Shown piece after piece: positions 26,501 to 48,262 of a DNA stretch of 64,000 nucleotides. The DNA is from Rufibacter roseolus (GTDB lineage: Bacteria; Bacteroidota; Bacteroidia; Cytophagales; Hymenobacteraceae), in assembly GCF_017916365.1 (NCBI RefSeq), contig NZ_JAFMSU010000002.1, forward strand, positions 1 to 64,000, written 5' to 3'. The notes beneath the pieces are model-generated. The model was not told the origin of the DNA and ran no database searches. It saw only the letters and a list, made by a program, of their open reading frames with translations. The translations under genes were made by a program, and so were the position numbers. How positions within the stretch are numbered: the first letter of the stretch is position 1; each line of letters begins with the position of its first letter.

Positions 26501-26786
26501 GTCTTACGGATCAGGAGCGAACGGAAGCAACAACAACAACCAGTACAGCAGCTGGTGGTTGAAAGAAGTAGACTTTCTGCGGTTGAAAACGGCTGAGATT
26601 GGGTACACCATTCCCAGTGCCATCTCCGGGAAAATAGGGATAGGAAACGCCCGGGTGTATCTAAGAGGGGTGAACCTGTTGACCTTCAGTAATTTCAAAT
26701 TATGGGATCCTGAGTTGCTCACCAGAAACGGAGCAAGATACCCTAATATTTCAGTCTATTCTTTAGGCTTTAATCTCCAATTCTAA
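23547..26786 (+). CDS. SusC/RagA family TonB-linked outer-membrane transporter
   Basis: A 1079-aa TonB-dependent transporter. Order: a long signal peptide (to about VPSQA), a carboxypeptidase-D regulatory-like Ig fold (about 70-145, VKGKVTDKTGSPLIGASVSVKG), a TonB-box-like segment DEVVVVAYGTQ, a plug domain (LAGRVAGVTGVQRSGQPG through GVRGANGVILIMTKRG) and a 22-strand-type barrel to the C-terminal LGFNLQF. With the SusD protein 10 bp downstream it forms the lidded importer for oligosaccharides, here probably alpha-mannosides given the GH92, GH76 and GH125 genes that follow. An operator-like site lies upstream. Confidence 0.96.
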   Translation: MKRDLPLKFLLSSYTQKNRGLWLKVVLAGFCFVSSAVPSQAIGEKASKKNTGLAVKSRQLARAGARVDFQVKGKVTDKTGSPLIGASVSVKGTAIGATTDVNGNYSINAPSESGTLVVSYIGYLSKEIAIGGKASIDIVLDEDQTKVDEVVVVAYGTQRKISNVGAQSSVSVKELDQPVANISTMLAGRVAGVTGVQRSGQPGYDGADIWIRGIASLSGSSAPLVLVDGVERSMNNIDPQDVESFTILKDASATAVYGVRGANGVILIMTKRGEEGKPRVTFDYNQGITQFTKVPKLIGGVDYMNLTNEAIYTRREPGGSIPTPKYSQEFIDKTASGEDPFVYPDVNWLDEVFERSGKNRNANLNVSGGSPQAKYYVSLGYYDETGLFNTDAIAQYNATTRFTRYNVTSNVTLDLTKTTKVDLGIQGYIATGNYPAENAATIYSSALEISPVEYPVMYPGGFVPGRTSNGGSRNPYADAALRGYQNENKNQLFSNLRLTQKLDQVTEGLSATAMFSFDAFNQHFIRRSKREDTWIVDPVNPRNPDGTLNLGTAPTFSGQNFLSYDRMNGGNRRFYMEGALNYDRAFGKHRISGLVLGNRSDYSDAFAGNFTESIPFRTEGIASRATYSFDDRYFAEVNIGYNGSENFDPANRYGFFPAFGLGWVISNEKFFEPLSNTINFLKLRYTDGKVGSDSGAGRFAFLGNVTDNNVRGYTFGRNRAGIGGIIEQTYGVAVTWVEARKQDIGIEINAFNSSLGIIFDVFKDRREGAFVARGDVPAYVGLTSIPSGNLGIVENKGFDGSINYDKNIGDFSMGFRGTFSYNRNKIIENDQPAQLYPWLERRGAPLLANWGYTALGLYSFEDDVNKDGFITPEDGDQYPVQFGRVQPGDIRYKDLNGDGRIDANDISKIGQGDVPALTYGFGTSLGYKGLDISLFFQGQAEADIVLEGRSIRAFSGDGGGENLYEIALDRWTEENPNPNAFYPRLSYGSGANGSNNNNQYSSWWLKEVDFLRLKTAEIGYTIPSAISGKIGIGNARVYLRGVNLLTFSNFKLWDPELLTRNGARYPNISVYSLGFNLQF

Positions 26787-31700: not shown

Positions 31701-31813
31701 GGAACGGAACATACCAGGGCTCACCGCTGGCACAAGGCGTGTATTACTATGTGATTGACTTAGGTTCCGGTATTTCTTCCGCCAAAGGAGCCCTCACCAT
31801 TATCCGTGATTAA
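28733..31813 (+). CDS. T9SS type-B surface protein with three discoidin-like repeats and FN3 domains
   Basis: Secreted protein of 1026 aa, probably the glycan-binding surface protein of the PUL. After the signal peptide (to AAAQ) come two adjacent discoidin (F5/8 C)-like repeats (about 30-170 and 174-315), an FN3 domain, a third discoidin-like repeat (about 410-555), two more FN3 domains, an Ig/cadherin-like part and a PKD-like part. The repeats share GVLTVFKEND, SPKVIDN, DPKDW and SNNGT. The last 90 residues, from NILTPNGDGKNDVW, are a gliding-motility-associated (CHU_C) type-B T9SS sorting domain. It stands where SusE/SusF proteins normally sit and is followed 15 bp later by a PorP/SprF gene, the usual partner for type-B substrates. 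No catalytic domain is visible. Confidence 0.88.
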   Translation: MKQLLQFVRVVFCALIFFSVINEAAAQDDLTSKGGVLTVFKENDSGASSREGSPKVIDNNPDTKFLSHFENMQWLRFELTEPAVVGTYTLVSADDDPNRDPKDWKFEGSNNGTTWVELDARTGEMFPERFLTQTYSVNNSTAYKYYRLNISAIKANNTFQLAEWRLFEAASTPDITERGGVLTVFKENDGGQNAGEGSPKVIDNDPNTKFLSNFPGSQWIQLQLTAPAIAGTYTLVSANDAPDRDPKDWRIEGSNNGTDWTVLDTRTGEMFSERFQTKTYTLTNSTAYTYYRFFISALKNGGTFQLAEWRLFEGVPPLAPSALSGFSTAGDEVYLTWTDNAGTETSFELQRSTDGTTFTKVADLAANTTTYYDKGLNRATRYFYRVRAVGAYGPSGFSPVKNITTLNYSGALVDITDNGGTLTVSKDNDNNPNENSPKLIDNNLESKFLEAPNRTLWVQYESTSPTDIVTKYTIVSANDAPERDPKDWTLQGSNNGTDWTILDTRRNQRFTSRFQHRVFSFENNTAFKYYKLDITVNNGSSDAIQMTELMIWGIPQNVPAVPGNVRLTNITESAITINWNDVANENGYEVWRSTDGTAFSKLKEVEAGVTNHTDTNLGVLATYYYKVLAKGATYASIFSPVVSGTTLYDERLPLPAQNLVATTLSENQVKLDWTDRAENETGFQIERSTNGTSYTLLQTLAANVTTFTDEGLKLATRYYYRIRPFNEYSQTSGISAPYSAVAQTITNGSNQAPSMAAIADQKSCNVIDAYTIPLEGITAGPEAGQQVNLLVSTNRSALFSDLSVSTVENGKATLTYKLVEGQTGDATVTVTVKDDGGTLNDGTDTFTRTFKITSYELNMSVAADRNGKVPRGETIQLTVTGEEGYTYTWANGPGIISGQNSNKLLIKPTQGYVYKVTASTAEGCTKEAEFTVQVEGGVGLQANNILTPNGDGKNDVWVIWNINTYPGSKLKVFDTAGRVVYEKENYANDWNGTYQGSPLAQGVYYYVIDLGSGISSAKGALTIIRD

Positions 31814-31828
31814 AAAACAGAAAGCCAT

Positions 31829-32749
31829 ATGAAAAAGCTATATAACCTAAAAAAGGGATTGCCTTTCTTTCTTCTTCTCTTCTGCTGCCTGGCGCTGGTA
31901 GAGGAAGGTGCGGCTCAGATCAACCCCTTGAGAGCGATTTACTTTCAGAATCAGTACTTGGCTAATCCGGCCATGGCTGGGGTAACCGGAGGGCTTAGGG
32001 TAAACCTCCATTACCGCAACCAGTGGGGGAGCATCTCAGATGCTCCCACCACGGAGGCCATCACCGCTGAGTACGGCCTTGGAAACAGAGTAGGCTTGGG
32101 GGTGAACCTGGGGCAGACCAGTGAAGGATTGATCAAAAGATCCAGGGCCATGGCAACGTATTCTTACCACCTGCCCCTGAACCAGGGCACCCGCCAATTG
32201 CATTTCGGGTTATCTGCGGGCGTGGTGAATGAGCAGCTTGACATGGACGAGATGGTAGGGGACGTGGATGACCAAACCGTGGCCCGGTTCAACGACCAGG
32301 GTCCCTATGTGGAGGGGGAAGTTGGGGTCGCCTACACCGATTCCAAACTCACGATTCAGGGCTCTTTTCCCAATATCAGGGCTTTTCTGGACAAGAGTCT
32401 CAATGAGAACAACACCGTGAACCGCTCTACCTACTTTGCCGCCGCCAGCTATAAAGTTACCCTTGGCTCAGGGGTTGGGGTAGAACCCAAAGTGGTGTAT
32501 CGGGGAGTGAAAGGATTTGATGACCTCCTGGATGCCGGTGCCAACCTGTCGTTCATGGACAACCAGTTCAATGTGTTTGGGATGTACCACAGCTCAAAGA
32601 ACGTGACCTTTGGCTTTGGGGCTGATGTGAAAAGAAGACTGGCCCTTACCGGAATGTACACCACCGGCTCATCGGCCTTGAACAGCCTTACCGGCATGAA
32701 AGGAAGCTTTGAACTTGGGCTCAGAGCCTCTCTCTGGAACGTGCAATAA
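31829..32749 (+). CDS. PorP/SprF family T9SS membrane protein
   Basis: A 306-aa outer-membrane barrel-type protein: signal peptide (to GAAQ) and the family opening INPLRAIYFQNQYLANPAMAGVTGGLRVNLHYRNQW, then alternating strands such as GVEPKVVYRG. PorP/SprF proteins are needed for secretion or surface attachment of specific type-B T9SS cargo, and genes for cargo and SprF are usually adjacent. Here the cargo is the discoidin/FN3 protein encoded just upstream. The rest of the T9SS machinery is not in this window. Confidence 0.93.
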   Translation: MKKLYNLKKGLPFFLLLFCCLALVEEGAAQINPLRAIYFQNQYLANPAMAGVTGGLRVNLHYRNQWGSISDAPTTEAITAEYGLGNRVGLGVNLGQTSEGLIKRSRAMATYSYHLPLNQGTRQLHFGLSAGVVNEQLDMDEMVGDVDDQTVARFNDQGPYVEGEVGVAYTDSKLTIQGSFPNIRAFLDKSLNENNTVNRSTYFAAASYKVTLGSGVGVEPKVVYRGVKGFDDLLDAGANLSFMDNQFNVFGMYHSSKNVTFGFGADVKRRLALTGMYTTGSSALNSLTGMKGSFELGLRASLWNVQ

Positions 32750-32912: not shown

Positions 32913-35225
32913 ATGAAAAAACTCTTCATTTGGATTCTGGCAAGCGTACCGTTCTTCTCTTCCGCTCAGGTCTCTAAAAAAACTGAAGTATCTCCTGTGG
33001 ATCTGGTGAACCCCCTGATGGGCACCGATTCCAAGCCTGAACTCTCCAACGGGAATACCTACCCGGCGGTGGCTGTGCCCTGGGGCATGAACCTATGGAC
33101 GCCCCAGACGGGTACCATGGGCAACGGTTGGGCCTACACCTACGCCGCCGACAAAATCCGGGGCTTCAAGCAGACGCACCAGCCGTCGCCCTGGATGAAT
33201 GACTACGGCCAGTTCGTGATCATGCCGGTGACCGGAAAGATGAAGTTCGATCAGGATGGGCGCGCCAGCTGGTACTCCCACAAGTCTGAGACGGCCAAGC
33301 CTTACTACTACGGCGTCTACCTGGCTGATCATGACGTGACCGCCGAACTCACCCCCACCGAGCGTGCCGCCCAGTTCCGCTTCACCTATCCCAAATCTGA
33401 CAGCTCTTTCATCGTGATAGATGCGCTGGACAAAGGCTCGTACGTGAAGGTGCTGCCCAAAGAGCGGAAGATTGTGGGGTACACCACCAAATACGCCCGC
33501 GGCCCGCTGAAGGAGTTCAAGAACCACTTCGTCATCTACGTTGACAAACCTATTATTCTGGCCCGTACTTTCCGCGGCAAGACGCTGACTGGCAGAGATT
33601 CCCTGGAACTGACCTCCAACCATTCGGGGGCGGTGATCGGGTTCAAGACGGCCAAAGGCGAAAAGGTGAACCTGAAAGTGGCTTCTTCTTTCATCAGCCA
33701 GGAGCAGGCCGAGCTGAACCTGAGCCGCGAGCTGGCGCAGGACAACTTCGATGCGACCATGGCCAAAGCCCGGGAGCGCTGGGAGAAGACCCTGGGCCGT
33801 ATCAAGGTGGAGGGTGGTACCGAGGAACAGCAACGCACCTTCTACTCCTGCTTGTATCGCACGCTGTTCTTCCCTCACAAGATGTATGAGCTGAACGCCG
33901 CGAACAAGGCAGTGCACTACAGCCCCTACACCGGCAAGGTGCACGACGGTTACCGCTTCGCCGGAACCGGTTTCTGGGACACGTTCCGGGCCTTGTATCC
34001 TTTCCTGAACCTCATGTACCCCGCCATCAACAAGGAGATGCAGGAGGGCCTGATCAACGACTACAAGGAGGGTGGCTGGCTGCCCGAGTGGTCCAGCCCG
34101 GGTTACTCAGACATCATGATCGGGAACAACTCGGCCTCGGTAGTGGCGGATGCTTACATGAAAGGTTTGCGTGGCTATGACATTGAGAAACTCTACGAGG
34201 CGCTGGTGCACGGGGCCAATAACGAAGGCCCAATTACCGCCATCGGCCGCAAGGGCGTGGAGTATTACAACAAGCTGGGTTACGTGCCCTACGATGTGAA
34301 CATCAACGAGAACGCCGCCCGCACCCTGGAGTATGCTTATGACGACTTTGCCATCTACCAACTGGCCAAAGCCCTGAAGAGACCAGAGGCCGAGATTGAC
34401 CTCTATGCCAAGCGCAGCCAGAACTACCGCAACCTCTATGACCCGGCTACTGGCCTGATGCGCGGCAAGAACAAGGACGGCAAGTTCCAGGCTCCGTTCA
34501 ACCCCTTCAAGTGGGGCGACGCCTTCACCGAGGGTAATAGCTGGCACTATTCCTGGAGCGTGTTCCATGACGTGCAGGGCCTCATTGACCTGATGGGAGG
34601 CAAGCAGAACTTTGTGAAGAAGCTGGACTCAGTGTTCACCCTACCGCCGGTGTTCGATGACTCCTACTACGGCGGCGTGATCCACGAGATCCGCGAGATG
34701 CAGATCGCTAACATGGGCCAGTACGCACACGGCAACCAGCCCATCCAGCACATGACCTACCTTTACAACTTCGCTGGGGAGCCCTGGAAAACCCAGTACT
34801 GGGCACGCGAGACCATGAACCGCATGTACAAGCCCACGCCAGACGGCTACTGCGGCGACGAAGACAACGGCCAGACCTCGGCCTGGTACGTGTTCTCAGC
34901 CATGGGCTTCTACCCGGTTTGTCCCGGCACCGACCAGTACGTGCTCGGCGCGCCGCTCTTCCCCAAGATGACCCTGGAGCTGGAGAACGGCAAGAAGGTG
35001 GAGATTGAGGCCCCGGCCAACTCTGCGCAGAATCTGTACGTGCAAGACCTGAAATTAAACGGCAAGAAGCACGAGAAAAACTGGGTGGGTCACTTCGAGT
35101 TGATGAAAGGCGCCAAACTGCTCTTCGACATGGCTGACAAACCCAACACCAAACGTGGAACCGAGGAAAGCGCCCTGCCTTTCTCATTCTCTAAACCACA
35201 GTACGTGACCCAGAACGGGGAATAG
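32913..35225 (+). CDS. GH92 family exo-alpha-mannosidase
   Basis: A 770-aa periplasmic or surface glycosidase with a signal peptide (to SSA-QV). The N-terminal beta-sandwich (VNPLMGTDSKPELSNGNTYPAV) is followed by a six-hairpin-toroid-like catalytic domain. Glu540 (FTEGNSW) fits the family's general acid. Asp649 and Asp651 (GDEDNGQ) fit the paired general-base aspartates, and the 109/111 spacing matches what I recall for the characterised enzyme BT3990. GH92 enzymes are calcium-dependent inverting alpha-mannosidases, mostly cutting alpha-1,2 or alpha-1,3 mannose from yeast mannan or N-glycans; linkage cannot be fixed here. An operator palindrome lies upstream. Confidence 0.95.
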   Translation: MKKLFIWILASVPFFSSAQVSKKTEVSPVDLVNPLMGTDSKPELSNGNTYPAVAVPWGMNLWTPQTGTMGNGWAYTYAADKIRGFKQTHQPSPWMNDYGQFVIMPVTGKMKFDQDGRASWYSHKSETAKPYYYGVYLADHDVTAELTPTERAAQFRFTYPKSDSSFIVIDALDKGSYVKVLPKERKIVGYTTKYARGPLKEFKNHFVIYVDKPIILARTFRGKTLTGRDSLELTSNHSGAVIGFKTAKGEKVNLKVASSFISQEQAELNLSRELAQDNFDATMAKARERWEKTLGRIKVEGGTEEQQRTFYSCLYRTLFFPHKMYELNAANKAVHYSPYTGKVHDGYRFAGTGFWDTFRALYPFLNLMYPAINKEMQEGLINDYKEGGWLPEWSSPGYSDIMIGNNSASVVADAYMKGLRGYDIEKLYEALVHGANNEGPITAIGRKGVEYYNKLGYVPYDVNINENAARTLEYAYDDFAIYQLAKALKRPEAEIDLYAKRSQNYRNLYDPATGLMRGKNKDGKFQAPFNPFKWGDAFTEGNSWHYSWSVFHDVQGLIDLMGGKQNFVKKLDSVFTLPPVFDDSYYGGVIHEIREMQIANMGQYAHGNQPIQHMTYLYNFAGEPWKTQYWARETMNRMYKPTPDGYCGDEDNGQTSAWYVFSAMGFYPVCPGTDQYVLGAPLFPKMTLELENGKKVEIEAPANSAQNLYVQDLKLNGKKHEKNWVGHFELMKGAKLLFDMADKPNTKRGTEESALPFSFSKPQYVTQNGE

Positions 35226-35408: not shown

Positions 35409-36317
35409 ATGAATCATACAACAGTAGTGGGAATTGATGTAGGAGGTTCGCATATCTCCGCAGCCCTTGTGGATATGGAAACGAGTGCCCTTGTTTCGGG
35501 AAGCTACGTGAGGAAGGAAATAAACACCCAGGGCTCGGTAAACGAGATCATAGACAACTGGTGTGAGGTCATACAGCAGGCCCAGAAGTTTGACGGCACT
35601 TTCTCCGGTAAAATAGGGATTGCCATGCCGGGTCCTTTTGATTACCCCAACGGCGTTTCCCTCATCAAAGACCAGAACAAATATGACATCCTCTACAAAC
35701 TCAATGTAAAGGAGTTGCTGGCCGAGAAGCTCCTGATGCAGGCTGATGACATCCGGTTTCTGAACGATGCCGAGTGCTTTCTGCTGGGCGAGGTGTTCTG
35801 CGGAGCAGCCCAAGGGGTGGAGCAGGTGCTGGGATTGACTTTAGGTACTGGCCTGGGCTCTGCCTGGTGCCACCACGGCAAAGTGGAAGACGCGGATCTC
35901 TGGAACTCGCCCTTCAAAGAAGGCATCGCTGAGGATTACCTGTCTACCCGCTGGTTCGTGAATCGGTTCTTTGAACTCACCGGTCAGAAAGTGACCGGAG
36001 TAAAAGAACTCGCTGACCTGGCGCCTCAAAACCAAACCGTGCAGACCGTTTTTGATGAGTTTGGACAGAATCTGGCCGATTTCATAAAAACAGCCGTGGA
36101 ACGCAATGACGCAGTAATGGTGGTGATCGGCGGGAACATCTCCAAAGCCTATCCTCTGTTCTCCGGGGAACTGGAGAAGCACCTGCAAGACGCGGCTTTG
36201 CACATTCCCATCCGGGTCGCCGAGTTGGGGGAGGAGTCGGCCTTGATTGGGGCGGCCAGTTCCTGGAAAGGCAGCTTCCTGGAGAAAGAGGAAGTTGCGA
36301 ATGCCATAAGAAAGTAA
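35409..36317 (+). CDS. ROK family protein, probable sugar kinase without the zinc motif
   Basis: A 302-aa cytosolic protein of the ROK/ASKHA fold. The phosphate-1 loop GIDVGGSHISAALVD (8-22), MPGPFDYPNG, FLNDAECFLLGEV and the adenosine-side LTLGTGLGSAW are present, and there is no N-terminal helix-turn-helix. It is thus a kinase-type rather than a repressor-type ROK protein. The cysteine-rich zinc site usual in ROK kinases (CxCGxxGC) is absent: after GLGSAW the sequence is CHHGKVEDADLWNSPF. In the mannan PUL it may phosphorylate mannose or a mannobiose product; that is inference. Confidence 0.85.
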   Translation: MNHTTVVGIDVGGSHISAALVDMETSALVSGSYVRKEINTQGSVNEIIDNWCEVIQQAQKFDGTFSGKIGIAMPGPFDYPNGVSLIKDQNKYDILYKLNVKELLAEKLLMQADDIRFLNDAECFLLGEVFCGAAQGVEQVLGLTLGTGLGSAWCHHGKVEDADLWNSPFKEGIAEDYLSTRWFVNRFFELTGQKVTGVKELADLAPQNQTVQTVFDEFGQNLADFIKTAVERNDAVMVVIGGNISKAYPLFSGELEKHLQDAALHIPIRVAELGEESALIGAASSWKGSFLEKEEVANAIRK

Positions 36318-37231: not shown

Positions 37232-37295
37232 AGAAAACCGGCATGGATCAGTTTTGATTACGCTTACGCTTTCAAATGTTTTACCCCAGACACAG

Positions 37296-39599
37296 ATGAA
37301 ACTAAGATCCCTCGTCCTTTCCTTTTTTTGCCTTTGGAGCGCCTTACTCTACGCCGGTACGCCCAACCTGGTGCAGTATGTGAACACCTTGCAGGGTACC
37401 AACTCGTCGTTTGACCTGACCCGCGGCAATACCTACCCAACTACCGCGCTGCCGTTTGCCATGCACACCTGGACCCCCCAAACCGGGCAGAACGGCGACG
37501 GCTGGAAATACCAATATTCCAAAAACACCATCAGAGGTTTTCAGCAGGCGCACCAGTGCAGTTCCTGGTCCAATGACTACGCGGTGTTCTCCCTGATGCC
37601 GGTGATCGGGAAACTGGAGGTACACGAGGACAAAAGGGCCACCAAGTTCAGCCACGCCAATGAGGTTGCCAAACCTCACTACTACAAGGTAAAGCTGGAC
37701 AACAACATCACCACCGAGATGTCGCCTACGGAGCGCGGAGTGCACGCCCGTTTCTCGTTTACTAAGACCGAGGGTTCCTACATCGTGCTGGATGGGTACA
37801 CCGGCGCCAGCATGGTGAAGATCATTCCCAAGGAGCGCAAGATCATCGGGTACGTGCACAACGGCCGAGGGCTGAAGGACAACTTCAAAAGCTATTTCGT
37901 GGTCGTTTTTGACAAACCTTTCATAAATCAGGGAACCTGGGAAAACAAAGGTGGCAAAATCTCCGCGGGCAATCTGTCCGGCGAAGGGCAGGGTATTGGC
38001 GCGTACGTGCAGTTCAAAGATGGTGAAAAAGTGCAGGCGAAAGTGGCCTCTTCGTACATCAGCCCGGAGCAGGCCGAACTCACTTTAAGCAGAGAATTGG
38101 GCAAGCACAAGAAACTGGAAGACACCAAAGCCGCCGCCGAAGCAGTCTGGAACAAGCACCTGAGCCGCGTGATGGTAGAGGGCGGTACTGAAGAAGAAAA
38201 GGCTACCTTTTATTCCTGCTTTTTCCGGGCAAGTTTGTTTTCGCGCCAATTTTTTGAATACGACAAAGACGGCAAGCCTTACTATTTCAGTCCGTATGAC
38301 GGCAAAGTGCACGAAGGTTACATGTACACCGATACTGGTTTCTGGGACACCTTCCGGGCGCAGTTTCCGCTGAACTCTATCCTGCACCCCACCATGCACG
38401 GCCGCTACATGGTGGCGCTGCTGGATGCCAAGGACCAGTGCGGTTGGTTGCCGTCCTGGTCGTTCCCCGGCGAGGCGGGCAGTATGATCGGAAACCACGC
38501 CATCTCGCTTCTCACCGATGCCTGGGTGAAAAACATCCGCACCTTTGATCCCAAGCGCGCCTTGGACGCCTATTACCACGAGGCCACGAACAAAGGCCCT
38601 TGGGGACCCGCCAACGGCCGCGAAGGTTGGAAAGACTACTACACGCTGGGCTACGTTTCCATGCCGCGGCACGGCGAAGCCACCGCGAAAACCCTGGAAT
38701 ACGCCTACGACGATTTCTGCGGCTACCAACTGGCCAAACTCACGGGCAACTCTTTTTATGAGCAGCTCTTCGCCCGGAATATGTACAACTACAAAAACGT
38801 GTATGACCCCAGCACCGGGTTCATGCGCGGCCGCAAAGAAAATGGTGAGTGGCTGCCCAATTTCGATCCGGTGGAGTGGGGCGGCCCTTTCACCGAGGGC
38901 AACGCCTGGCACTGGCAGTGGTCGGTGTTCCAGGATATCCAAGGGTTGATCAAACTGATGGGCGGCGAGAAGCGGTTCACGGCCAAGCTGGACTCGGTGT
39001 TCAGTGTGCCCAACACGGTGAAGGTGGGTTCCTACGGCCGCATGATCCACGAAATGACCGAGATGGTGATGGCCAACATGGGCCAGTACGCGCACGGCAA
39101 CCAGCCCATCCAGCACATGCCGTACCTCTACAACTACGGCGGTGAGCCCTGGAAATCGCAGGAGAAAGTGCGCATGGTGATGGACCGCCTGTACAACTCC
39201 ACCGAGAACGGTTACCCCGGCGACGAGGACCAGGGGCAGACGTCTTCCTGGTACGTGCTGAGCGCTATGGGCATCTACAGCGTGTGCCCCGGCACCGACC
39301 AGTATGTCATCGGGAGCCCGGTGTTCCAGAAAGCCACCGTCACGCTGGAGAACGGCAAGAAGTTTACCGTGGAAGCCAAAAACAACAGCAAGCAGAACGT
39401 GTACATCCAGTCGGCTACGCTCAACGGCAAACCCTATGACCACAACTATATCCGGCACGCCGACATCGTGGCGGGCGGAACACTGAGCTTCGTGATGGGC
39501 GACAAACCAGCCTTGAACCGGGGCATCAAAGCCGAAAACAAGCCTTTCTCGTTATCGGCTCCTGGCCAAGGACAGGAGATAGAATTAGGCAAGAAGTAG
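37296..39599 (+). CDS. GH92 family exo-alpha-mannosidase, second copy
   Basis: A 767-aa secreted glycosidase, started at the ATG at 37296 because the upstream TTG at 37254 would place 14 residues before the signal peptide (MKLRSLVLSFFCLWSALLYA). Glu534 (FTEGNAW) fits the general acid, and Asp643 and Asp645 (GDEDQGQ) the general bases, with the same 109/111 spacing as the first GH92 protein. It differs from the first copy in many positions (HMPYLYNYGG against HMTYLYNFAG, for example), so the two probably have different linkage specificities. It heads a run with the GH76, the 728-aa protein and the DUF4965 protein. Confidence 0.95.
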   Translation: MKLRSLVLSFFCLWSALLYAGTPNLVQYVNTLQGTNSSFDLTRGNTYPTTALPFAMHTWTPQTGQNGDGWKYQYSKNTIRGFQQAHQCSSWSNDYAVFSLMPVIGKLEVHEDKRATKFSHANEVAKPHYYKVKLDNNITTEMSPTERGVHARFSFTKTEGSYIVLDGYTGASMVKIIPKERKIIGYVHNGRGLKDNFKSYFVVVFDKPFINQGTWENKGGKISAGNLSGEGQGIGAYVQFKDGEKVQAKVASSYISPEQAELTLSRELGKHKKLEDTKAAAEAVWNKHLSRVMVEGGTEEEKATFYSCFFRASLFSRQFFEYDKDGKPYYFSPYDGKVHEGYMYTDTGFWDTFRAQFPLNSILHPTMHGRYMVALLDAKDQCGWLPSWSFPGEAGSMIGNHAISLLTDAWVKNIRTFDPKRALDAYYHEATNKGPWGPANGREGWKDYYTLGYVSMPRHGEATAKTLEYAYDDFCGYQLAKLTGNSFYEQLFARNMYNYKNVYDPSTGFMRGRKENGEWLPNFDPVEWGGPFTEGNAWHWQWSVFQDIQGLIKLMGGEKRFTAKLDSVFSVPNTVKVGSYGRMIHEMTEMVMANMGQYAHGNQPIQHMPYLYNYGGEPWKSQEKVRMVMDRLYNSTENGYPGDEDQGQTSSWYVLSAMGIYSVCPGTDQYVIGSPVFQKATVTLENGKKFTVEAKNNSKQNVYIQSATLNGKPYDHNYIRHADIVAGGTLSFVMGDKPALNRGIKAENKPFSLSAPGQGQEIELGKK

Positions 39600-39675
39600 A
39601 CCTTGTTTTCAACCCAGAATCAGGTGCGCTCAATTGCTTTGTCCAACGGGGCATTCATCACTCAAACGAAAGAAA

Positions 39676-40794
39676 ATGAATAAGTTCAAGTGTCTCTCTT
39701 TGTCAGCGTTGGTGTTGTTGCTGCTTGGTTGCGGCAGCGAGAAGGAAGAGGAGGAGGTAACCCCAACCAAACCCGTGGAAACGGCTTCCTTCACCGCCGC
39801 CGATGTGAACACCGCCTATACTGCGTTTAACACCCATTTTTACAATCCGGAGGCAAAACTGTATTACAGCACCTCGGCCAAGACTGGGTTGGGCGCCATC
39901 TGGACGCAGGCCATTTACTGGGACATCGCCATGGATGCCTATAACCGCACCAAAGACGCGAATCAGTTGAAACTGGTGAATGATATGTACCAGGGCGGAT
40001 TTCAGGAGTACGACGGCTATAACTGGAACAACACCCGCGAGTGGTTTATCTATGATGACATGATGTGGTGGATCATCTCGCTGGCTCGGGCGTACCAGAT
40101 CACCGGCAACCAGGTGTACCTGGACAAAGCCAAAGAAGGATTCCAGAACGTATGGGGTAGATCCTATGACCCCGTGAACGGCGGCATGTTCTGGAATTTT
40201 GCGAAAGACGGCAAGAACGCCTGCATCAATTACCCCACAGTTATCGCGGCCATGGAGCTGTACAAGATTACCAAAGACGAGCAGTACCTGGACAAAGCCA
40301 AGACCATTTACTCGTGGGCCAGAGCCAATCTGTTCAACAACGGCCGGGTGGCCGATAACATCCACGTGGTCCAGGGCAACGTGGGCTGGAGCGATTACAC
40401 CTACAACCAGGGAACCTGCATCGGGGCCGCGGTGATGCTGTACAAAGCCACCGGCACCGAGTCTTATCTGAATGACGCCAAACTGGCCGCCGATTACACG
40501 AAGCAGAAGATGAGCGACGCCAACGGCATTCTTCCCGCCGAGGGCGACTGGAACGAGCAAGGGGTCTTGAAAGCCATTTTCGGGCGCTACATCATGATGC
40601 TCATCAAAGACGCGAACCAGCCCCAGTACCTTCCCTGGATTCAGGACAACATCACCCTGGCCTGGAAAAACCGGGATAAAGCCCGTGATCTCACTTTCAG
40701 AGACTACCGGGTGGCTTGCCCCACCGGCACCATTCAGTCCTACGAGGCCAGCAGCGTGGTGGGCATGATGCAGGTGTGCCCTCCCAAGGAATAG
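39676..40794 (+). CDS. GH76 family endo-alpha-1,6-mannanase, lipoprotein
   Basis: A 372-aa lipoprotein (lipobox LLLGC, Cys19; start at ATG 39676, not 39634) followed by an acidic linker. The (alpha/alpha)6 domain bears the GH76 catalytic pair Asp127-Asp128 in WFIYDDMMWW, and helix repeats such as DANQLKLVNDMYQGG and DEQYLDKAKTIYSWA. GH76 enzymes cut the alpha-1,6-mannose backbone of yeast mannan once side chains are trimmed by GH92 enzymes. As a lipoprotein it should act at the cell surface or periplasmic face. Next gene 36 bp on. Confidence 0.94.
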   Translation: MNKFKCLSLSALVLLLLGCGSEKEEEEVTPTKPVETASFTAADVNTAYTAFNTHFYNPEAKLYYSTSAKTGLGAIWTQAIYWDIAMDAYNRTKDANQLKLVNDMYQGGFQEYDGYNWNNTREWFIYDDMMWWIISLARAYQITGNQVYLDKAKEGFQNVWGRSYDPVNGGMFWNFAKDGKNACINYPTVIAAMELYKITKDEQYLDKAKTIYSWARANLFNNGRVADNIHVVQGNVGWSDYTYNQGTCIGAAVMLYKATGTESYLNDAKLAADYTKQKMSDANGILPAEGDWNEQGVLKAIFGRYIMMLIKDANQPQYLPWIQDNITLAWKNRDKARDLTFRDYRVACPTGTIQSYEASSVVGMMQVCPPKE

Positions 40795-40830: not shown

Positions 40831-43017
40831 ATGGTCCTGAAATCAAGAGTCGCTTTCTTTCTGAGTGGTGCCCTGCTGTTGGGGTTGAGAAGCCATGCCC
40901 AGCTGAAAGCCCCTAAACCCGATAGCGAGAAAACCGCCTTCCAGATTGCCGATGCCTGGGCGCCAGATTACGATGTGCGTTCCGATGTGGCCATTGTCTA
41001 CGGCATCCATGACGCGGGCGGCGACTTTGAAGGCCGCGTGAAAAGCTGGCGCGACAAAGGCTACAAAGTGCATTTCATGACGGGCATCGCCTGGGGCGAG
41101 TACCAGGATTTCTTCACTGGCAAATACGATGGCAAAACCCACTGGGAAGACGGTCAGGTCATGCAAAACGGCGAAACCATCTGGCACGGCAAAGACGTGC
41201 CCTACGTGGTTCCCTCGGCCACTTACCTCACCTACATGAAAGCCTTGGTGAAAAGAGCCATTGATGCCGGCGTGACCGCCGTGCACCTGGAGGAACCGGA
41301 GTTCTGGGCCCGGGCCGGTTATGGGCCTTCTTTTAAAAAAGAGTGGGAAAAACAGTACGGCTTCCCCTGGATGGCCCAGGACGAATCTCCCGAGGCTACC
41401 TACCTTTCCTCCAAACTAAAATACCAACTCTACTTCAACGCCCTGAAAGAGGTGTTTGCCTACGTGCGATCCTACAGTCAAAGCAAAGGCGTCACCGTCA
41501 AGTGTTACGTACCCACCCACTCGCTCATCAACTATTCTTCCTGGGCCATTGTGAGCCCCGAGGCCAGTCTGGCGAATCTGGAAGGAATGGACGGCTACAT
41601 CGCGCAGGTCTGGACCGGCACTTCGCGGGAGCCTATCCACTTCAACGGCGTGTTGAAAGAGCGCGTGTTTGAGAATGCTTTTCTGGAGTACGGTTCCATG
41701 GTGTCGATGACGGCACCCACCGGCCGCAAGATGTTCTTCCTCACCGATCCCATCGAGGACCGCCGCCAAACCTGGGACGACTACAAACGAAACTACGAGG
41801 CCACCTTTACCGCGCAACTGCTGTACCCCACGGTGGCTTCGTACGAGGTGATGCCCTGGCCCAAACGCATCTACCTGGGCAAGTTCAAGATGGAAAATAG
41901 CAATGAGACCCAGCCCATCCCCAGAACCTACGCCACCCAGATGCAGGTGATGGTGAACTCCCTCAACGACATGCCTCTGTCTTCGAACCAAGTAAACGGC
42001 ACCAAGGGCATTGACATTCTGCTGGGTAATTCCATGATGTTTCAGCGGTTTCCCACCCACAAAGGCTACGAAGATCCGCAGCTTTCCAACTTCTACGGCA
42101 TGGTGATGCCCTTCCTGAAACAGGGTATTCCGGTGGGAACGGTGCACATGGAGAACCTGGGCCTGGACCAAACCCTGAAGAACACCAAAGTGCTCATCAT
42201 GAGCTACGCCAACATGAAACCCATGTCGCCTGTTTCGCATGAGGTTTTGGCAAAATGGGTCAAAAACGGCGGCGTGTTGGTGTACGTGGGCCGCGACCAT
42301 GACCCTTTCCAAACGGTAAAAGAATGGTGGAACACGGGCGGAAAAACCTACAAAGCGCCTTCAGAGCACCTCTTGGAGCAACTGGGCATCACAGAGACCT
42401 CGGGGAAACAGAACTACTCCGTAGGCAAAGGCAAAGTGTACCTCCTGCGCCGCGATCCCAAAGAACTCGTGTTGCAATCCGGCGAGGATGCAGATTTCAT
42501 CTCTTTGGTGATAAACGCCTTTGAAACAGATGCCAAAGCGGGAAAGGTCATTACCAAGAATCATTTCCTGTTGCAACGGGGACCTTTTGACATCGCGGCG
42601 GTTCTGGACGAAAGCGTGGGCGATACTCCATTAACAATATCCGGTCCGGTAGTAGACTTGTTTGATCCTGAGTTGCCGGTGCTTCCAGAGAAAGTGGTGA
42701 AGCCGGGCCAGCAGGCCTACCTCTATAACCTCACCCGCCTGAAAAGCAAAAAAGAGCCATCGGTGCTGTGTGCCGCCTCACGGGTGTACGAGGAAAAGAA
42801 AGGGAAAACTTCTTATTCCTTCCTGACCAAAAGCCCTTCCAACACCAGAAACGCCATGCGCATGGTACTTCCCGCTGAACCCAAAACCATCACCCTAACC
42901 GATGCCGGTGGCCAGAAACTCGCAGACGTGAAAACCGCCTGGCACAAGGACACCAACACCTACCTGGTGCAGTTTGAGAATGACAGCCGCGGCATCAGGG
43001 TGCAGGTGAATTGGTGA
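40831..43017 (+). CDS. uncharacterised probable glycoside hydrolase, GH42/GH164-like architecture
   Basis: A 728-aa secreted protein (signal peptide to SHAQ) I cannot place in a named family. Residues about 45-355 look like a TIM barrel: DVAIVYGIHD, YKVHFMTGIAWGEYQDFF, VTAVHLEEPEFWARAGYG, VKCYVPTHS, MDGYIAQVW, FLTDPIEDRRQ and ASYEVMPWPKRIYL. Glu154, Glu155 or Glu157 at a strand-4-like position and Glu339 at a strand-7-like position would suit the acid/base and nucleophile of a clan GH-A retaining enzyme. Residues about 390-500 resemble the amidotransferase-like trimerisation domain of GH42 enzymes (QGIPVGTVHMENL, VLIMSYANMKPMS, GGVLVYVGRD), and a beta-rich tail follows. Set between GH76 and DUF4965 genes, it likely acts on a mannan or linked glycan. 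Confidence 0.7.
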   Translation: MVLKSRVAFFLSGALLLGLRSHAQLKAPKPDSEKTAFQIADAWAPDYDVRSDVAIVYGIHDAGGDFEGRVKSWRDKGYKVHFMTGIAWGEYQDFFTGKYDGKTHWEDGQVMQNGETIWHGKDVPYVVPSATYLTYMKALVKRAIDAGVTAVHLEEPEFWARAGYGPSFKKEWEKQYGFPWMAQDESPEATYLSSKLKYQLYFNALKEVFAYVRSYSQSKGVTVKCYVPTHSLINYSSWAIVSPEASLANLEGMDGYIAQVWTGTSREPIHFNGVLKERVFENAFLEYGSMVSMTAPTGRKMFFLTDPIEDRRQTWDDYKRNYEATFTAQLLYPTVASYEVMPWPKRIYLGKFKMENSNETQPIPRTYATQMQVMVNSLNDMPLSSNQVNGTKGIDILLGNSMMFQRFPTHKGYEDPQLSNFYGMVMPFLKQGIPVGTVHMENLGLDQTLKNTKVLIMSYANMKPMSPVSHEVLAKWVKNGGVLVYVGRDHDPFQTVKEWWNTGGKTYKAPSEHLLEQLGITETSGKQNYSVGKGKVYLLRRDPKELVLQSGEDADFISLVINAFETDAKAGKVITKNHFLLQRGPFDIAAVLDESVGDTPLTISGPVVDLFDPELPVLPEKVVKPGQQAYLYNLTRLKSKKEPSVLCAASRVYEEKKGKTSYSFLTKSPSNTRNAMRMVLPAEPKTITLTDAGGQKLADVKTAWHKDTNTYLVQFENDSRGIRVQVNW

Positions 43018-43135: not shown

Positions 43136-45628
43136 ATGAAAAGAATCAGTCTGTTTTTGTTTCTGGTATGGTTGCCCCAACTGGTGCTCACGGCACAGGA
43201 TCTCCGGGCGCCCGCTTACCCCTTGGTCACGCATAACCCTTATTTCAGTATCTGGTCTTTTGGCGATGATTTGTCAAAATCGGCCACAAAACACTGGACT
43301 GGCCAGGAGACGCCTCTGATTGGCATGGTGAAGGTAGATGGCGCAGTGTACCGGTTCCTGGGCCAGGAGGCCAAAGTGTACCAATCGGTGCTTCCGGCGG
43401 CCGACGAGAAAGCCTATTCTTTCACCTATACTGAAAACGAGCCCGGTGCTGGCTGGCAGTCAGCCCAGTTCAACGCGTCTGGCTGGAAAACCGGGGCAGC
43501 GCCTTTCGGGGATGACAAGACCCAGGCCAAAACACCCTGGGAGAGCAGCAATCTCTGGGTGAGAAGAACCTTCTCTTTTTCCGAGGCCGATGCCGGGAAA
43601 CTGTTCCTCAAACTGAACCATGACGACAACGTGGAAGTCTACCTTAACGGCGAGGAAATCTACCGCCACGTGGGGTGGGTGCATAAGTACGAGTACATTC
43701 CCATCAAGCCTGAGGTCGCCAAAAAGCTGAAGAAAGAAGGCAATGTGCTGGCCATCCACGTGGCTAATACCGCCGGCGGCCGCTGGCTGGATGCCGGTTT
43801 GGTGCGCGAGGAAACCACCAAGGAGTACGCCAAGGTGATTCCGGCCGTGCAGAAAAGCGTGCAACTGAACGCCACCCAAACCATCTACCAATTCACCTGC
43901 GGCAAAGTGGACGTGACCGCCACCTTCACTTCACCGCTGCTCATGAACAACCTGGATGTGCTGGCCCGGCCGGTGTCATACGTGTCCATGAAGGTGAAGT
44001 CAAATGACAAGGTGGCCCACAACGTGCAGCTGTACCTGGGGGCTTCCTCAGACATCGCGGTGAACACCCCAGACCAGGAAGTGACCACGCAGGAGTACAC
44101 CGCCGAGAAACTCTCTATCCTGAAAGCCGGTACCAAGGCCCAGCCCATGCTGCAGAAGAAAGGCGATGATGTGCGCATTGACTGGGGATACCTGTACGTG
44201 GCGGTGCCAGCTTCGGCGAAAGCCAACCAGTACGTGAGCTCAGTAGGAAAAGCGGTAGCGCCTTTTCTATCCGCCACAACCCCGGCGGTGCAGAACACGG
44301 AGCAGGGCAGAAGCCTGATGTTAAGCACCATCGTGCCGTTGGGCAAAGTAGGTCCTGAGGCCAAAGAGCAGGTTTTTCTTTTAGGATATGATGAGGTGTA
44401 CGCCGTCCAGTACTTCAAGCAGAACCTGCGCCCTTGGTGGAAAGAAAGTGAAGCCGCCACTATTGAAAAAGAAATGGCCCAGGCTTCCGCCGATTACGCC
44501 AAGACCATCAAGCAGTGCGAGGCTTTTGACAAGCAGCTGTACCAAGACGCCCAGAAATCCGGCGGAAAAGAGTACGCCGATCTTTGTGAGTTGGCTTACC
44601 GCCAAGCCATCGCGGCCCACATTCTGGTGAAAAGTCCGCAGGGCGAAATTCTGTTCCTGTCCAAGGAAAACTTCAGCAACGGCTCCATCAACACCGTGGA
44701 TGTGACCTATCCTTCGGCGCCGCTGTTTCTCGTTTATAACCCAGATTTATTAAAAGGCATGCTAAACGGCATCTTCTACTACAGCGAGAGCGGTCAGTGG
44801 AAAAAGCCTTTCCCGGCGCATGACCTGGGCACGTACCCCATTGCCAACGGCCAGACATACGGCGAGGACATGCCGGTGGAGGAAGCAGGTAACATGCTCA
44901 TCCTTACTGCGGCTATCGCGAAGGCGGAAGGTAACGCCGAGTACGCCCGCAAGCACTGGGAAACCCTCACCACCTGGGCCGAGTTTCTCAAGAAAAGCGG
45001 TTTTGATCCCGAGAACCAACTCTCCACCGATGACTTTGCCGGGCACCTGGCCCGCAACGCGAATTTGTCGGTGAAAGCGATTGAAGCCCTGGGGGCCTAC
45101 GGCATGTTGGCTCAAATGCTGGGCAAGGCCGAGGTGGCCAAGCAGTACACCAACGAACCCAAGGAGATGGCCCAGAAGTGGATGCAACTGGCCGGCGACG
45201 GCGACCACTTTACCCTTGCTTTCGAGAACAAGGGTACCTGGAGCCAGAAATACAACCTGGCCTGGGACGATATCCTGGATTTGAACATCTTCCCTAAAAC
45301 CGTGCGTGAAACGGAAGTGAAGTACTACCTCACCAAACAACAGCCTTTCGGGCTGCCGCTGGACAGCCGCAAGACCTACACCAAATCTGACTGGATCATC
45401 TGGACCGCCACCCTTTCAGATAACCCCAAAGACTTCAAAGCCATCATCACGCCCGTCTGGAAATACGCAAACGAAACCCCTTCCCGGGTGCCCATCAGTG
45501 ACTGGCACGAGACCGTCAACGGAAGAATGACCGGGTTCCAGGCCCGCTCTGTGGTAGGCGGGTATTTTATGAAAATGCTGGAGGATAAACTAAACAAACA
45601 GCCGCTGCAGAGCGCCAACACCAAATAA
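43136..45628 (+). CDS. glutaminase-A-like DUF4965/DUF5127 protein with inserted jelly-roll domain
   Basis: An 830-aa secreted protein (signal peptide to LTAQ). The start RAPAYPLVTHNPYFSIWSFGDDL is the DUF4964 opening of the glutaminase A family. Residues about 100-225 form an inserted GH2-type sugar-binding sandwich (WQSAQFNASGWKTG, LWVRRTF, LNHDDNVEVYLNGEE, GNVLAIHVAN). It is followed by DUF5127, DUF4965 (EILFLSKENFSNGSINTVD, FYYSESGQW) and DUF1793 ((alpha/alpha)6, WDDILDLNIFP). Despite the name, homologues are widespread in Bacteroidetes PULs and probably act on sugars. Last gene of its transcription unit; a hairpin terminator lies at 45701-45729. Confidence 0.87.
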   Translation: MKRISLFLFLVWLPQLVLTAQDLRAPAYPLVTHNPYFSIWSFGDDLSKSATKHWTGQETPLIGMVKVDGAVYRFLGQEAKVYQSVLPAADEKAYSFTYTENEPGAGWQSAQFNASGWKTGAAPFGDDKTQAKTPWESSNLWVRRTFSFSEADAGKLFLKLNHDDNVEVYLNGEEIYRHVGWVHKYEYIPIKPEVAKKLKKEGNVLAIHVANTAGGRWLDAGLVREETTKEYAKVIPAVQKSVQLNATQTIYQFTCGKVDVTATFTSPLLMNNLDVLARPVSYVSMKVKSNDKVAHNVQLYLGASSDIAVNTPDQEVTTQEYTAEKLSILKAGTKAQPMLQKKGDDVRIDWGYLYVAVPASAKANQYVSSVGKAVAPFLSATTPAVQNTEQGRSLMLSTIVPLGKVGPEAKEQVFLLGYDEVYAVQYFKQNLRPWWKESEAATIEKEMAQASADYAKTIKQCEAFDKQLYQDAQKSGGKEYADLCELAYRQAIAAHILVKSPQGEILFLSKENFSNGSINTVDVTYPSAPLFLVYNPDLLKGMLNGIFYYSESGQWKKPFPAHDLGTYPIANGQTYGEDMPVEEAGNMLILTAAIAKAEGNAEYARKHWETLTTWAEFLKKSGFDPENQLSTDDFAGHLARNANLSVKAIEALGAYGMLAQMLGKAEVAKQYTNEPKEMAQKWMQLAGDGDHFTLAFENKGTWSQKYNLAWDDILDLNIFPKTVRETEVKYYLTKQQPFGLPLDSRKTYTKSDWIIWTATLSDNPKDFKAIITPVWKYANETPSRVPISDWHETVNGRMTGFQARSVVGGYFMKMLEDKLNKQPLQSANTK

Positions 45629-45752: not shown

Positions 45753-46787
45753 ATGCCTTTAAAAACAACCCTTAAAAAAGTCATTCTCGGTAGCTTGCTG
45801 TCTGGCGTAGTTTTGCCTGCTTTTTCCCAAAATGTGGCTAAAACGGTTCCTAATAAAACCGCTAAAACGGTTGAGAAAACCACCGCCGGCAACCCGGTTT
45901 TCCCCGGCTGGTACGCCGATCCGGAGGGTGCCATCTTCGGGAAGAAGTACTGGATCTATCCCACCTTCTCGGCAGTCTATGAAAAGCAGGTGTTCTTTGA
46001 TGCCTTCTCCTCGCCGGACCTGGTGAACTGGACCAAACACGCCCGCATCCTGGACACCACGGCGGTGAAATGGGCCAAGAAAGCCATCTGGGCCCCGGCT
46101 ATCGTGGAGAAAAAAGGCAAGTACTTTCTGTTCTTCGGGGCCAATGACATCCAGAGTGACAATGAAATAGGGGGTATCGGGGTGGCGGTGGCCAACAAAC
46201 CGGAAGGCCCTTTCAAAGATTACCTGGGGAAACCGCTGATAGACAAATTCCACAACGGCGCGCAGCCTATTGACCAGTTCGTGTTCAAAGACAAAGACGG
46301 CCAGTACTACATGATTTACGGTGGCTGGCGGCACTGCAACATCGCCAAACTGAAGGACGATTTCACCGGTTTCACAACTTTTGAGGATGGAACTACCTTC
46401 AAGGAAATCACCCCGGAAGGCTACGTTGAAGGCCCGTTCATGTTTGAGAAAGGTGGCAAGTATTACTTCATGTGGTCTGAGGGCGGCTGGGGCGGCCCCG
46501 ATTACCGGGTAGCCTACGCCATCGCTGATTCTCCCATGGGACCTTTTAAGCGCATCAGCACTATCCTGGCGCAGGACCCGCAGGTTGCCACCAGCGCCGG
46601 GCACCACTCCGTGATGCATGATCCCAAGTCAGATGACTGGTACATTGTCTACCACCGCAGACCCCTGGGCGATACAGGTAGGGACCACCGGGTGACCTGC
46701 ATTGACCGCATGACCTTTGACGAGAAAGGCTTTATTCAGCCGGTGAAAATCACCCAGGAAGGCGTAGCGAAGCAGAAAATCAAATAA
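45753..46787 (+). CDS. GH43 family glycoside hydrolase
   Basis: A 344-aa secreted five-blade beta-propeller enzyme; signal peptide ends near AFSQ. The three GH43 carboxylates are in place: general base Asp57 (GWYADPE), pKa-tuning Asp175 (IDQFVF) and general acid Glu227 (YVEGPFMF). GH43 enzymes usually act on arabinose, xylose or galactose residues. In a mannan locus it may remove a non-mannose decoration, but the substrate is open. Co-directional with GH125, 56 bp downstream. Confidence 0.88.
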   Translation: MPLKTTLKKVILGSLLSGVVLPAFSQNVAKTVPNKTAKTVEKTTAGNPVFPGWYADPEGAIFGKKYWIYPTFSAVYEKQVFFDAFSSPDLVNWTKHARILDTTAVKWAKKAIWAPAIVEKKGKYFLFFGANDIQSDNEIGGIGVAVANKPEGPFKDYLGKPLIDKFHNGAQPIDQFVFKDKDGQYYMIYGGWRHCNIAKLKDDFTGFTTFEDGTTFKEITPEGYVEGPFMFEKGGKYYFMWSEGGWGGPDYRVAYAIADSPMGPFKRISTILAQDPQVATSAGHHSVMHDPKSDDWYIVYHRRPLGDTGRDHRVTCIDRMTFDEKGFIQPVKITQEGVAKQKIK

Positions 46788-46843: not shown

Positions 46844-48262
46844 ATGAACAGGAGAACCTTTATTCAAAGCTCAGCCTTTTTAAGCGCCGGCGCTGTTATT
46901 GCCCCCATGTCTTTATTTGCCTCGCCGGCTGATTTTCCGGTGGTGCGGGTGCCGGCGGCCAAGCGTAATTTCCAGAGTAAATCGGTGGAGGCGGCTATCA
47001 AGGAGTTCCGGAAGAACGTGAAAGACAAAGAGCTGGGCTGGCTGTTTGAGAACTGTTTCCCCAGCACCCTGGATACCACCGTCACCCATAAAAACAACAA
47101 CGGAAAACCCGATACCTACGTCATCACTGGCGACATTGACGCCATGTGGATGCGCGACAGCTCGGCCCAGGTGTGGCCCTACCTCCAATTCCTGAAAAAA
47201 GACGAACCGCTTCGGCAGCTGGTGGCCGGGGTGATCAACCGGCAGACCACGTACATCCTCAAAGACCCTTATGCGAACGCGTTTTACGGTGACGAAAACA
47301 AAGTAGGGGAGTGGAAGACGGACCTGACCAACATGAAACCCGGCGTGCACGAGCGCAAGTGGGAGATCGATTCTTTGTGTTACCCCATCCGGCTGGCCTA
47401 CCATTACTGGAAAGAAACCGGCGACACCAAGCCCTTTGATGCGCAGTGGCAGCAGGCCATCCAAGCCATCTACAAAACCTTCCGGGAGCAGCAGCGCAAA
47501 GAAAACTTGGGCCCTTATAAATTCCAGCGAGTTACGCATGCCCCCACCGATACCCTGCCCATGGCCGGCTACGGTTTCCCGGTGAAACCCGTGGGACTCA
47601 TCTGCTCCGCATTTAGGCCCAGCGATGATGCCACCATTTACTCCTTTCTGGTGCCTTCCAACTTCTTCGCGGTGGTGAGCCTTAGACAGGCCGCCGAGAT
47701 GCTGAATGCCATCGCAAAAGACAAGAATACCGCAGATACTCTGTTGGCCTTGGCTTCTGAGGTGGAGAAAGCCTTGCAAACCCACGCAGTAATGGACCAT
47801 CCCCAGCACGGTAGAATCTACGCCTTTGAAGTGGACGGTTTCGGGAATTACTATTTCATGGACGATGCCAACGTGCCTAGCCTGCTGTCCTTGCCGTACC
47901 TGGGGGCAGTTTCCGTTTCTGACCCGGTTTACCAAAACACCCGCAAATACATCCTGTCTGAGAACAACCCGTTCTTCTTCAAAGGCACTGCCGCCGAAGG
48001 CATTGGTGGTCCGCACGTGGGGCAGGACATGATCTGGCCCATGGCCATCACCATGCGCGGCCTCACCTCCACCGATGCCCAGGAAGTGAAAACCTGTATT
48101 GAGATGCTGAAAGCCACCCACGCCGGAACCGGGTTCATGCACGAGAGTTTCCATAAGGATGACCCTAAAAAGTTCAGCCGCTCCTGGTTTGCCTGGGCCA
48201 ACACCCTCTTCGGGGAGTTCCTCTGGAAAACCTACCAGGAGAATCCTAAGCTGCTGGCGTAA
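46844..48262 (+). CDS. GH125 family exo-alpha-1,6-mannosidase
   Basis: A 472-aa enzyme of the metal-independent alpha-mannosidase family (formerly DUF1237). The N-terminus MNRRTFIQSSAFLSAGAVIA is a Tat-type signal, so it should be exported folded. Family blocks are GDIDAMWMRDSSAQVWPYL, KWEIDSLCYPIRLAYHYW, FRPSDDATIYSFLVPSN, MDDANVPSLLSLPYLG and HVGQDMIWPM. GH125 enzymes remove non-reducing alpha-1,6-mannose, completing the products of GH76. Last gene of the plus-strand PUL run; the 26-bp hairpin at 48300 follows. Confidence 0.95.
   Translation: MNRRTFIQSSAFLSAGAVIAPMSLFASPADFPVVRVPAAKRNFQSKSVEAAIKEFRKNVKDKELGWLFENCFPSTLDTTVTHKNNNGKPDTYVITGDIDAMWMRDSSAQVWPYLQFLKKDEPLRQLVAGVINRQTTYILKDPYANAFYGDENKVGEWKTDLTNMKPGVHERKWEIDSLCYPIRLAYHYWKETGDTKPFDAQWQQAIQAIYKTFREQQRKENLGPYKFQRVTHAPTDTLPMAGYGFPVKPVGLICSAFRPSDDATIYSFLVPSNFFAVVSLRQAAEMLNAIAKDKNTADTLLALASEVEKALQTHAVMDHPQHGRIYAFEVDGFGNYYFMDDANVPSLLSLPYLGAVSVSDPVYQNTRKYILSENNPFFFKGTAAEGIGGPHVGQDMIWPMAITMRGLTSTDAQEVKTCIEMLKATHAGTGFMHESFHKDDPKKFSRSWFAWANTLFGEFLWKTYQENPKLLA

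Follow-up and report, generated by a model that had tools for sequence, protein, structure and literature searches.

A putative glycosidase of GH42-like architecture with an atypical candidate catalytic pair in an alpha-mannan locus of Rufibacter roseolus

Introduction

The protein treated here is best compared with enzymes built around a (beta/alpha)8 barrel. GH42 beta-galactosidases (1kwg, 4ucf) share with its model the three domains, the order of the strands, a helical insert after strand 4 and a Glu at the end of that strand, but it has Glu-Glu for their Asn-Glu and an Asp at the place of their nucleophile, and identity in the Foldseek alignments is 10-11%. The insert after strand 4 is described for both GH42 and GH164 in the cited passages of PMC7105311, which also assign strand 4 to the acid/base and strand 7 to the nucleophile of GH164 and of clan GH-A. 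The GH164 beta-mannosidase Bs164 (6t75; Foldseek E 3.6e-11) likewise joins barrel, trimerisation domain and beta-sandwich, but in the same passages its residues are Asn159-Glu160 and Glu297, and its operons are interpreted as beta-mannan, not alpha-mannan, loci.

The GH35 beta-1,2-glucosyltransferase IaSGT (7vl3, 7vkx) resembles our protein in its barrel, Rossmann fold and Ig-like domain, but uses the pair Glu176/Glu343 (cited part of PMC8861115), where ours has Asp at strand 7. GH167 exo-carrageenases (9whd, and 6ptm, which is labelled GH42 but looks like BovGH167) are GH42-like in fold and distant from GH42 in sequence, as is our protein; they differ from it by a Glu/Glu pair, by their carrageenan loci and, in BovGH167, by an extra N-terminal helical domain. 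Being GH42-like at less than 20% identity to GH42, that group was given its own family, according to the same cited section (PMC6923384). The GxGYxYP family (BT2193) comprises, like ours, putative glycosidases from alpha-mannan-responsive loci, but the cited text of PMC4071793 gives it a seven-stranded barrel of another type and an N-terminal repeat domain, and its Pfam match is absent from our protein. As for loci, an alpha-mannan PUL of Salegentibacter is described in PMC9213526 as about 30 genes, including GH92, GH43, GH125, GH2 and GH76, and the cited portion of that account does not name a gene like ours. A beta-1,2-galactosidase (PMC11739564) and an alpha-agarase (PMC11311870) were considered and, as far as the cited portions describe them, offer no closer parallel. 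No published report of the family was found in the portions of the open-licence PMC literature covered, which is no proof of absence.

Results

The window, i.e., the whole stretch of 64,000 nucleotides of R. roseolus DNA that was analysed (from contig NZ_JAFMSU010000002.1), carries an uninterrupted frame of 728 codons from ATG to stop, whose product is here called P0001 (Table 1). An earlier note on this DNA, made from the letters only, had taken this frame for a gene encoding a secreted enzyme. The number of its homologues lies far beyond chance. In a scan of genome_contigs, the best 80 of 105 related stretches are 52-95% identical to P0001, blastp finds a matching ORF in each of these 80 loci, and 79 of them are labelled Bacteroidota and one Phycisphaerae; the closest of the 80 come from four Rufibacter (91-95% identity). 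The gene is nevertheless sporadic, being found in 4 of 395 genomes across the window's phylum, the window's own genome counted, and in 7 of 150 genomes of the window's family. Distant members were added from a Paenibacillus plasmid (41% identity) and from 17 loci in 15 genomes belonging to the class of G672, a genome itself sampled in the phylum to which the genome behind the Phycisphaerae record belongs; the home of these G672-class genomes would be Planctomycetota.

The copy in the Phycisphaerae-labelled record (L006) is 66% identical to the window's and groups within Bacteroidota on the tree, which may reflect gene transfer or mis-binning. Two neighbouring paralogues of G672 (L102 and L103; 1163 and 1146 aa) have about 400 or more additional N-terminal residues, with dockerin-like stretches by eye and no Pfam match at E 0.1. 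At another locus (L068), two family copies flank a SusC/SusD pair, one of them a fragment at the contig end. A viral origin was set aside: none of 17 IMG/VR pattern matches was confirmed, and phage records gave no match.

Table 1. Features of P0001 and of its locus, in window coordinates
Feature	Position	Strand	Basis
SusC-type TonB-dependent receptor	23547-26786	+	domain match
SusD-like	26797-28620	+	domain match
GH92	32913..35225	+	Pfam
ROK-family gene, probable sugar kinase	35409..36317	+	domain match
GH92	37254..39599	+	Pfam
GH76, endo-alpha-1,6-mannanase-type	39634..40794	+	Pfam E 7e-47; 36 bases upstream of P0001
GH42-like putative glycosidase gene, 728 aa (P0001)	40831..43017	+	open frame (ATG to stop) and homologues
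N-terminal hydrophobic segment, residues 1-24, probable signal peptide	40831..40902	+	hydropathy; model
Domain A, (beta/alpha)8 barrel, residues about 30-390	40918..42000	+	model m73c8e9a453d3 strand/helix order; Foldseek
Glu154-Glu155, strand 4 end; Glu155 proposed general acid(/base)	41290..41295	+	strand 150-154; 86/86 (Glu155), 85/86 (Glu154)
His230, directly after strand 5	41518..41520	+	86/86
Gln259 and Trp261, strand 6 end	41605..41613	+	87/87 each
D306-P-x-E-D310, strand 7 end; Asp306 proposed nucleophile/general base	41746..41760	+	strand 300-306; 87/87
Glu339-Arg346 (E-V-M-P-W-P-K-R), strand 8 and loop	41845..41868	+	strand 338-342; Trp343, Arg346 87/87
Domain B, Rossmann/GATase-like, trimerisation-type, residues about 391-600	42001..42630	+	model; GH42 domain B profile match; DUF4350/ThuA
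Domain C, beta-sandwich, residues about 601-728	42631..43014	+	model
GtaA_6_Hairpin/DUF5127/DUF4964	43136..45628	+	Pfam; 118 bases downstream of P0001
GH43	45753..46787	+	Pfam
GH125, exo-alpha-mannosidase-type	46844..48262	+	Pfam

Comparison of P0001 with Pfam leaves nothing above cut-off (the top score, 14.5 bits against 27.7 needed, belongs to an irrelevant domain, and IaSGT-type GH35 gives no match), and there are zero matches at E 1 both to NCBIfam and to PDB sequences. Two family profiles run against PDB sequences return chance-like matches only (best E 0.014), and neither they nor the single protein reveal there any sequence relation to Bs164, IaSGT or GH167. P0001 does not match GH42 itself (PF02449) at E 0.1, and at E 0.01 none of 62 members does. 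Scanned singly against Pfam, 5 of the 62 match DUF4350 and 1 matches ThuA, both of which we take to be amidotransferase-like. The impression that the protein belongs to no named GH family therefore holds for Pfam, NCBIfam and PDB sequences, and as judged by sequence against these three the family is likely to be new.

The fold was predicted with AlphaFold2 from an alignment of the window protein with 68 relatives (mean pLDDT 93.5, pTM 0.91); a single-sequence prediction was set aside (pLDDT 38.2). The model runs from a (beta/alpha)8 barrel through a Rossmann-like middle domain to a beta-sandwich. In model order the barrel strands are 35-39, 53-57, 79-85, 150-154, 224-229, 255-261, 300-306 and 338-342; strand 4 is followed by a helix at 166-176 and then by a long one at 187-218, and a helix at 365-380 leads to domain B (394 to about 600). 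Foldseek against the PDB gives 137 matches at E <= 0.001, the first 24 of which, at 9-12% identity, include IaSGT, GH42 beta-galactosidases (part of them presumably GH42, the remainder so labelled), GH164, GH167, 6ptm, alpha-agarase and a rhamnosidase. Ranks 1-18 are three-domain-type glycosidases with probability 1.00 and TM by query of 0.41-0.52, which at such identities indicates a shared architecture, not close kinship. Lower in the ranking, GH191, PelA, GH31 and GH66 match by the barrel only (E 5e-7 to 1e-5), and so the barrel alone is no proof of clan GH-A chemistry.

Profile comparisons with GH42, for which the GH42 profile consisted of 6 sequences only, add a weak alignment between the two middle domains (P 5e-4, probability 32%) and a weak match in the stretch of strands 3-4. 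For the barrel as a whole no sequence link with GH42 emerged: the global comparison has P 0.77, and the local one covers no more than 48 columns (P 0.0058, probability 6%). The TIM barrel with an amidotransferase-like trimerisation domain, laid out as in GH42 and GH164, which the earlier note had read from the letters, is thus borne out by model and Foldseek, and for the middle domain weakly by profile. Taken together, fold, conservation and context make it very probable that P0001 is a glycosidase.

The gene is part of a co-directional run with GH76, two GH92, GH43, GH125, ROK, SusC-type and SusD genes, and a BSP peptidase gene lies on the same strand. Both direct neighbours are confirmed by Pfam as the GH76 and DUF4965 genes previously proposed to enclose it in an alpha-mannan locus, DUF4965 being, we assume, the older name of GtaA_6_Hairpin. 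How general this setting is was judged from 88 neighbourhoods (the best 80 of 105 loci, the Paenibacillus locus, six stretches from five genomes and the window), with a simple ORF caller that misses some genes, and with Pfam labels checked on one representative per cluster of ORFs. Per 88, the counts are SusC type 46, SusD 43, GH92 38, GH76 27, GtaA-type 23, LacI-type regulators 23, ROK 18, GH125 16 and GH43 6. At least one of GH92, GH76 and GH125 occurs in 45 neighbourhoods and none in 43, and as 6 of the latter are contigs shorter than 12 kb, the comparison becomes 45 against 37 of 82 judged. On the tree this context is clustered, taking 12 changes against a mean of 27.2 after shuffling; starred branches force at least 11 of the 12. 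The neighbourhoods free of GH92, GH76 and GH125 comprise loci of Niabella (DUF2961 and L-fucose isomerase) and Ferruginibacter (GH106), L006 (GH28) and L049 (alpha-L-arabinofuranosidase), and a good number in which no clear glycan theme shows. With 37 of 82 lacking the three families and some of them holding GH106, DUF2961, GH28 or alpha-L-arabinofuranosidase genes, alpha-mannan would not be the family's only substrate.

Co-occurrence across genomes points in the direction of GH76, found in 23 of 150 genomes of the window's family: all 7 carriers of the gene have it, against 16 of 143 non-carriers (Fisher P 8e-7), and within the genus 5 of 5 carriers against 1 of 11 others (P 0.0014). GH125 occurs in 64 of the 150, all 7 carriers included (P 0.002). 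These P values are too small, because the genomes are related, and the two draws of 150 genomes (for the gene and for GH76) are taken as the same since, wherever they can be compared, the genome handles in the two lists are identical. Two of the 7 carriers (G401 and G528) have their GH76 elsewhere in the genome, not adjoining the gene. PhyH dioxygenase was considered as a constant partner and rejected, phmmer against the other called ORFs having found no further cases; a PhyH gene adjoins the family gene in two Ferruginibacter loci (L025, L029) and lies five genes upstream of it in Paenibacillus (L092).

Regarding export, the model has a helix at 2-22 with low confidence after it, and a hydropathy cut-off finds a signal-like hydrophobic N-terminus in 79 of 85 relatives of at least 690 aa. 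A lipobox-like pattern occurs in 8 of these 85. The N-terminus of the window protein, hydrophobic and free of that pattern, fits a signal peptide, in agreement with the proposed secretion. The Paenibacillus member fails the hydropathy cut-off, and its gene comes after a carbohydrate ABC transporter. Both the signal-like N-terminus and this transporter context would fit action on imported oligosaccharides, not on the polymer.

Discussion

The reading we lean towards, although by no great measure, is that P0001 acts as a glycosidase through Glu155 and Asp306 in alpha-mannan loci, on a bond that its neighbours do not serve. It would be a glycoside hydrolase that has a GH42-like architecture, is exported (probably to the periplasm) and partners GH76, GH92 and GH125 in the degradation of fungal-type alpha-mannan oligosaccharides. 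Glu155, where strand 4 ends, would give a proton to the leaving group, and Asp306, the last residue of strand 7, could act either as nucleophile (if the enzyme is retaining) or as activator of water (if inverting). The target would most likely be a sugar or linkage beyond the reach of GH76, GH92 and GH125, e.g., a beta-linked cap or branch.

That Glu155 and Asp306 form the working pair seems probable. Conservation was counted over 87 aligned rows, distant members included. The barrel has 25 strictly invariant positions; 16 of them sit at the C-terminal ends of strands, where 3.9 are expected (P 1e-8, a guide only, because invariant positions occur in runs), and none at N-terminal ends. The motifs VHLEEPEFW (151-159) and ASYEVMPWP (336-344), in which the earlier note had placed the acid/base (Glu154, Glu155 or Glu157) and the nucleophile (Glu339), are where it had quoted them. 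From the first, Glu155 stands as the candidate; Glu154 is replaced by Ala in one row, and Glu157 is ruled out as a catalytic residue, being Glu in 80 of 86 rows and Leu in 6. The proposal for Glu339 did not survive, as this residue lies on strand 8, whereas strand 7 ends with the invariant Asp306, in the sequence TDPIED that also contains Glu309 (86/87) and Asp310 (87/87). A weak profile alignment with GH42 (probability 54%) pairs Glu155 with the Glu in TDNE, a GH42 motif; the same alignment does not bring Asp306 onto the nucleophile, the GH42 segment IMEQQPG falling on residues 328-334, and barrel-only comparisons are not significant over their length, so that the strand-7 assignment is drawn from the strand order of the model and not from superposition.

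P0001 could alternatively be an inverting, or at least a non-GH-A, enzyme on the same scaffold, with Asp306, shorter than a Glu and helped by Asp310, Glu309 or His230, as the base for water, or with D306-x-x-E309 working in a GH99-like manner, and in that case alpha-mannosides could be cleaved. GH99 follows a 1,2-anhydro mechanism with two Glu that stand three residues apart beyond strand 7, an arrangement to which the pair in P0001 bears a resemblance only. We consider this possible but rather unlikely: Asp rather than Glu at strand 7, Glu rather than Asn before the acid, the near-complete conservation of all three strand-7 acids, and alpha-mannan-type neighbours in 45 of 88 cases speak for it, while the nearest folds with known chemistry are retaining enzymes acting on beta-glycosides, according to the cited passages of PMC7105311, PMC6923384 and PMC8861115.

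A conventional retaining enzyme of clan GH-A, in which Glu155 would be the acid/base and Glu339 the nucleophile, is improbable. In this clan the acid/base Glu is usually directly preceded by Asn. P0001 has the (beta/alpha)8 barrel with a Glu at the end of strand 4, and Glu339, conserved in 86 of 87 rows, lies at the barrel's C-terminal side. However, the residue before Glu155 is Glu154, strand 7 ends (by strand order in the model) in Asp306, which is outside the clan GH-A norm, and the one exception at position 339, the Gln of a G672 paralogue (L136, the L102 gene), retains both Glu155 and Asp306. With a Glu-Glu/Asp in place of the Asn-Glu/Glu signature, filing the family in clan GH-A, as previously suggested, is not justified.

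We give little credence to the enzyme being a phosphorylase or transglycosylase, like GH112 or IaSGT, rather than a hydrolase: IaSGT, a glucosyltransferase, tops the Foldseek ranking and GH112-type phosphorylases take ranks 25-27, but the TM by query of the phosphorylases is only 0.33-0.40, and phosphorolysis would be less useful outside the cytoplasm, for which 79 of 85 members appear to be destined. That P0001 is a catalytically dead, glycan-binding relative is highly improbable, for although the GxGYxYP proteins of mannan loci are reported to have shown no activity so far (a personal communication in the cited part of PMC4071793), the conserved acids, His, Gln and Trp cluster on the barrel's catalytic face even in very distant members.

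Those distant members also divide the family in the region after strand 4. Most rows read EEPEFW or EEPEYW, and six distant ones (L128-L131, L134 and L136) EEPLAH, EEPLGH or EEPLTF; in the six, Tyr57 is also replaced, by His in five and by Trp in one, and Trp88 by Ser. Glu155, His230, Gln259, Trp261 and Asp306 are retained in all of them. Binding subsites would be expected to differ between the two subgroups.

The gene is conserved, recurrent and unnamed in apparent fungal alpha-mannan loci, and thus points to a pathway step outside GH76, GH92, GH125 and GH43. If the reading of Asp306 is true, the GH42 scaffold tolerates change at the position of the clan-defining nucleophile, and the family would test how well fold-based clan assignment predicts chemistry. 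More boldly, and only tentatively, one may picture an unnumbered GH family of Bacteroidota, presumed Planctomycetota and Paenibacillus, in which a GH42 fold with a rewired centre, and with stereochemistry or bond specificity unlike that of clan GH-A, cuts a bond in fungal mannan on which the known mannan enzymes do not act.

The surroundings of the gene hold a few further observations. Between SusD and the first GH92 (28733-32749) the window encodes a 1026-aa protein with F5/8 type C and fn3 domains and a type B T9SS sorting domain, as well as a PorP/SprF-family protein. The GtaA_6_Hairpin/DUF5127/DUF4964 gene directly downstream of P0001 is matched by no NCBIfam model at E 1e-5, and may be a further enzyme of the mannan locus without family assignment. 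On the minus strand, at 52210-57702, lies the gene of an 1830-aa protein with GH16, bacterial Ig and F5/8 type C domains, MopE-type metal-binding motifs and a T9SS tail. A second GH76-GH125 pair occurs in the same genome (G000, contig C2, 99116-101555), about 51 kb downstream of the first.
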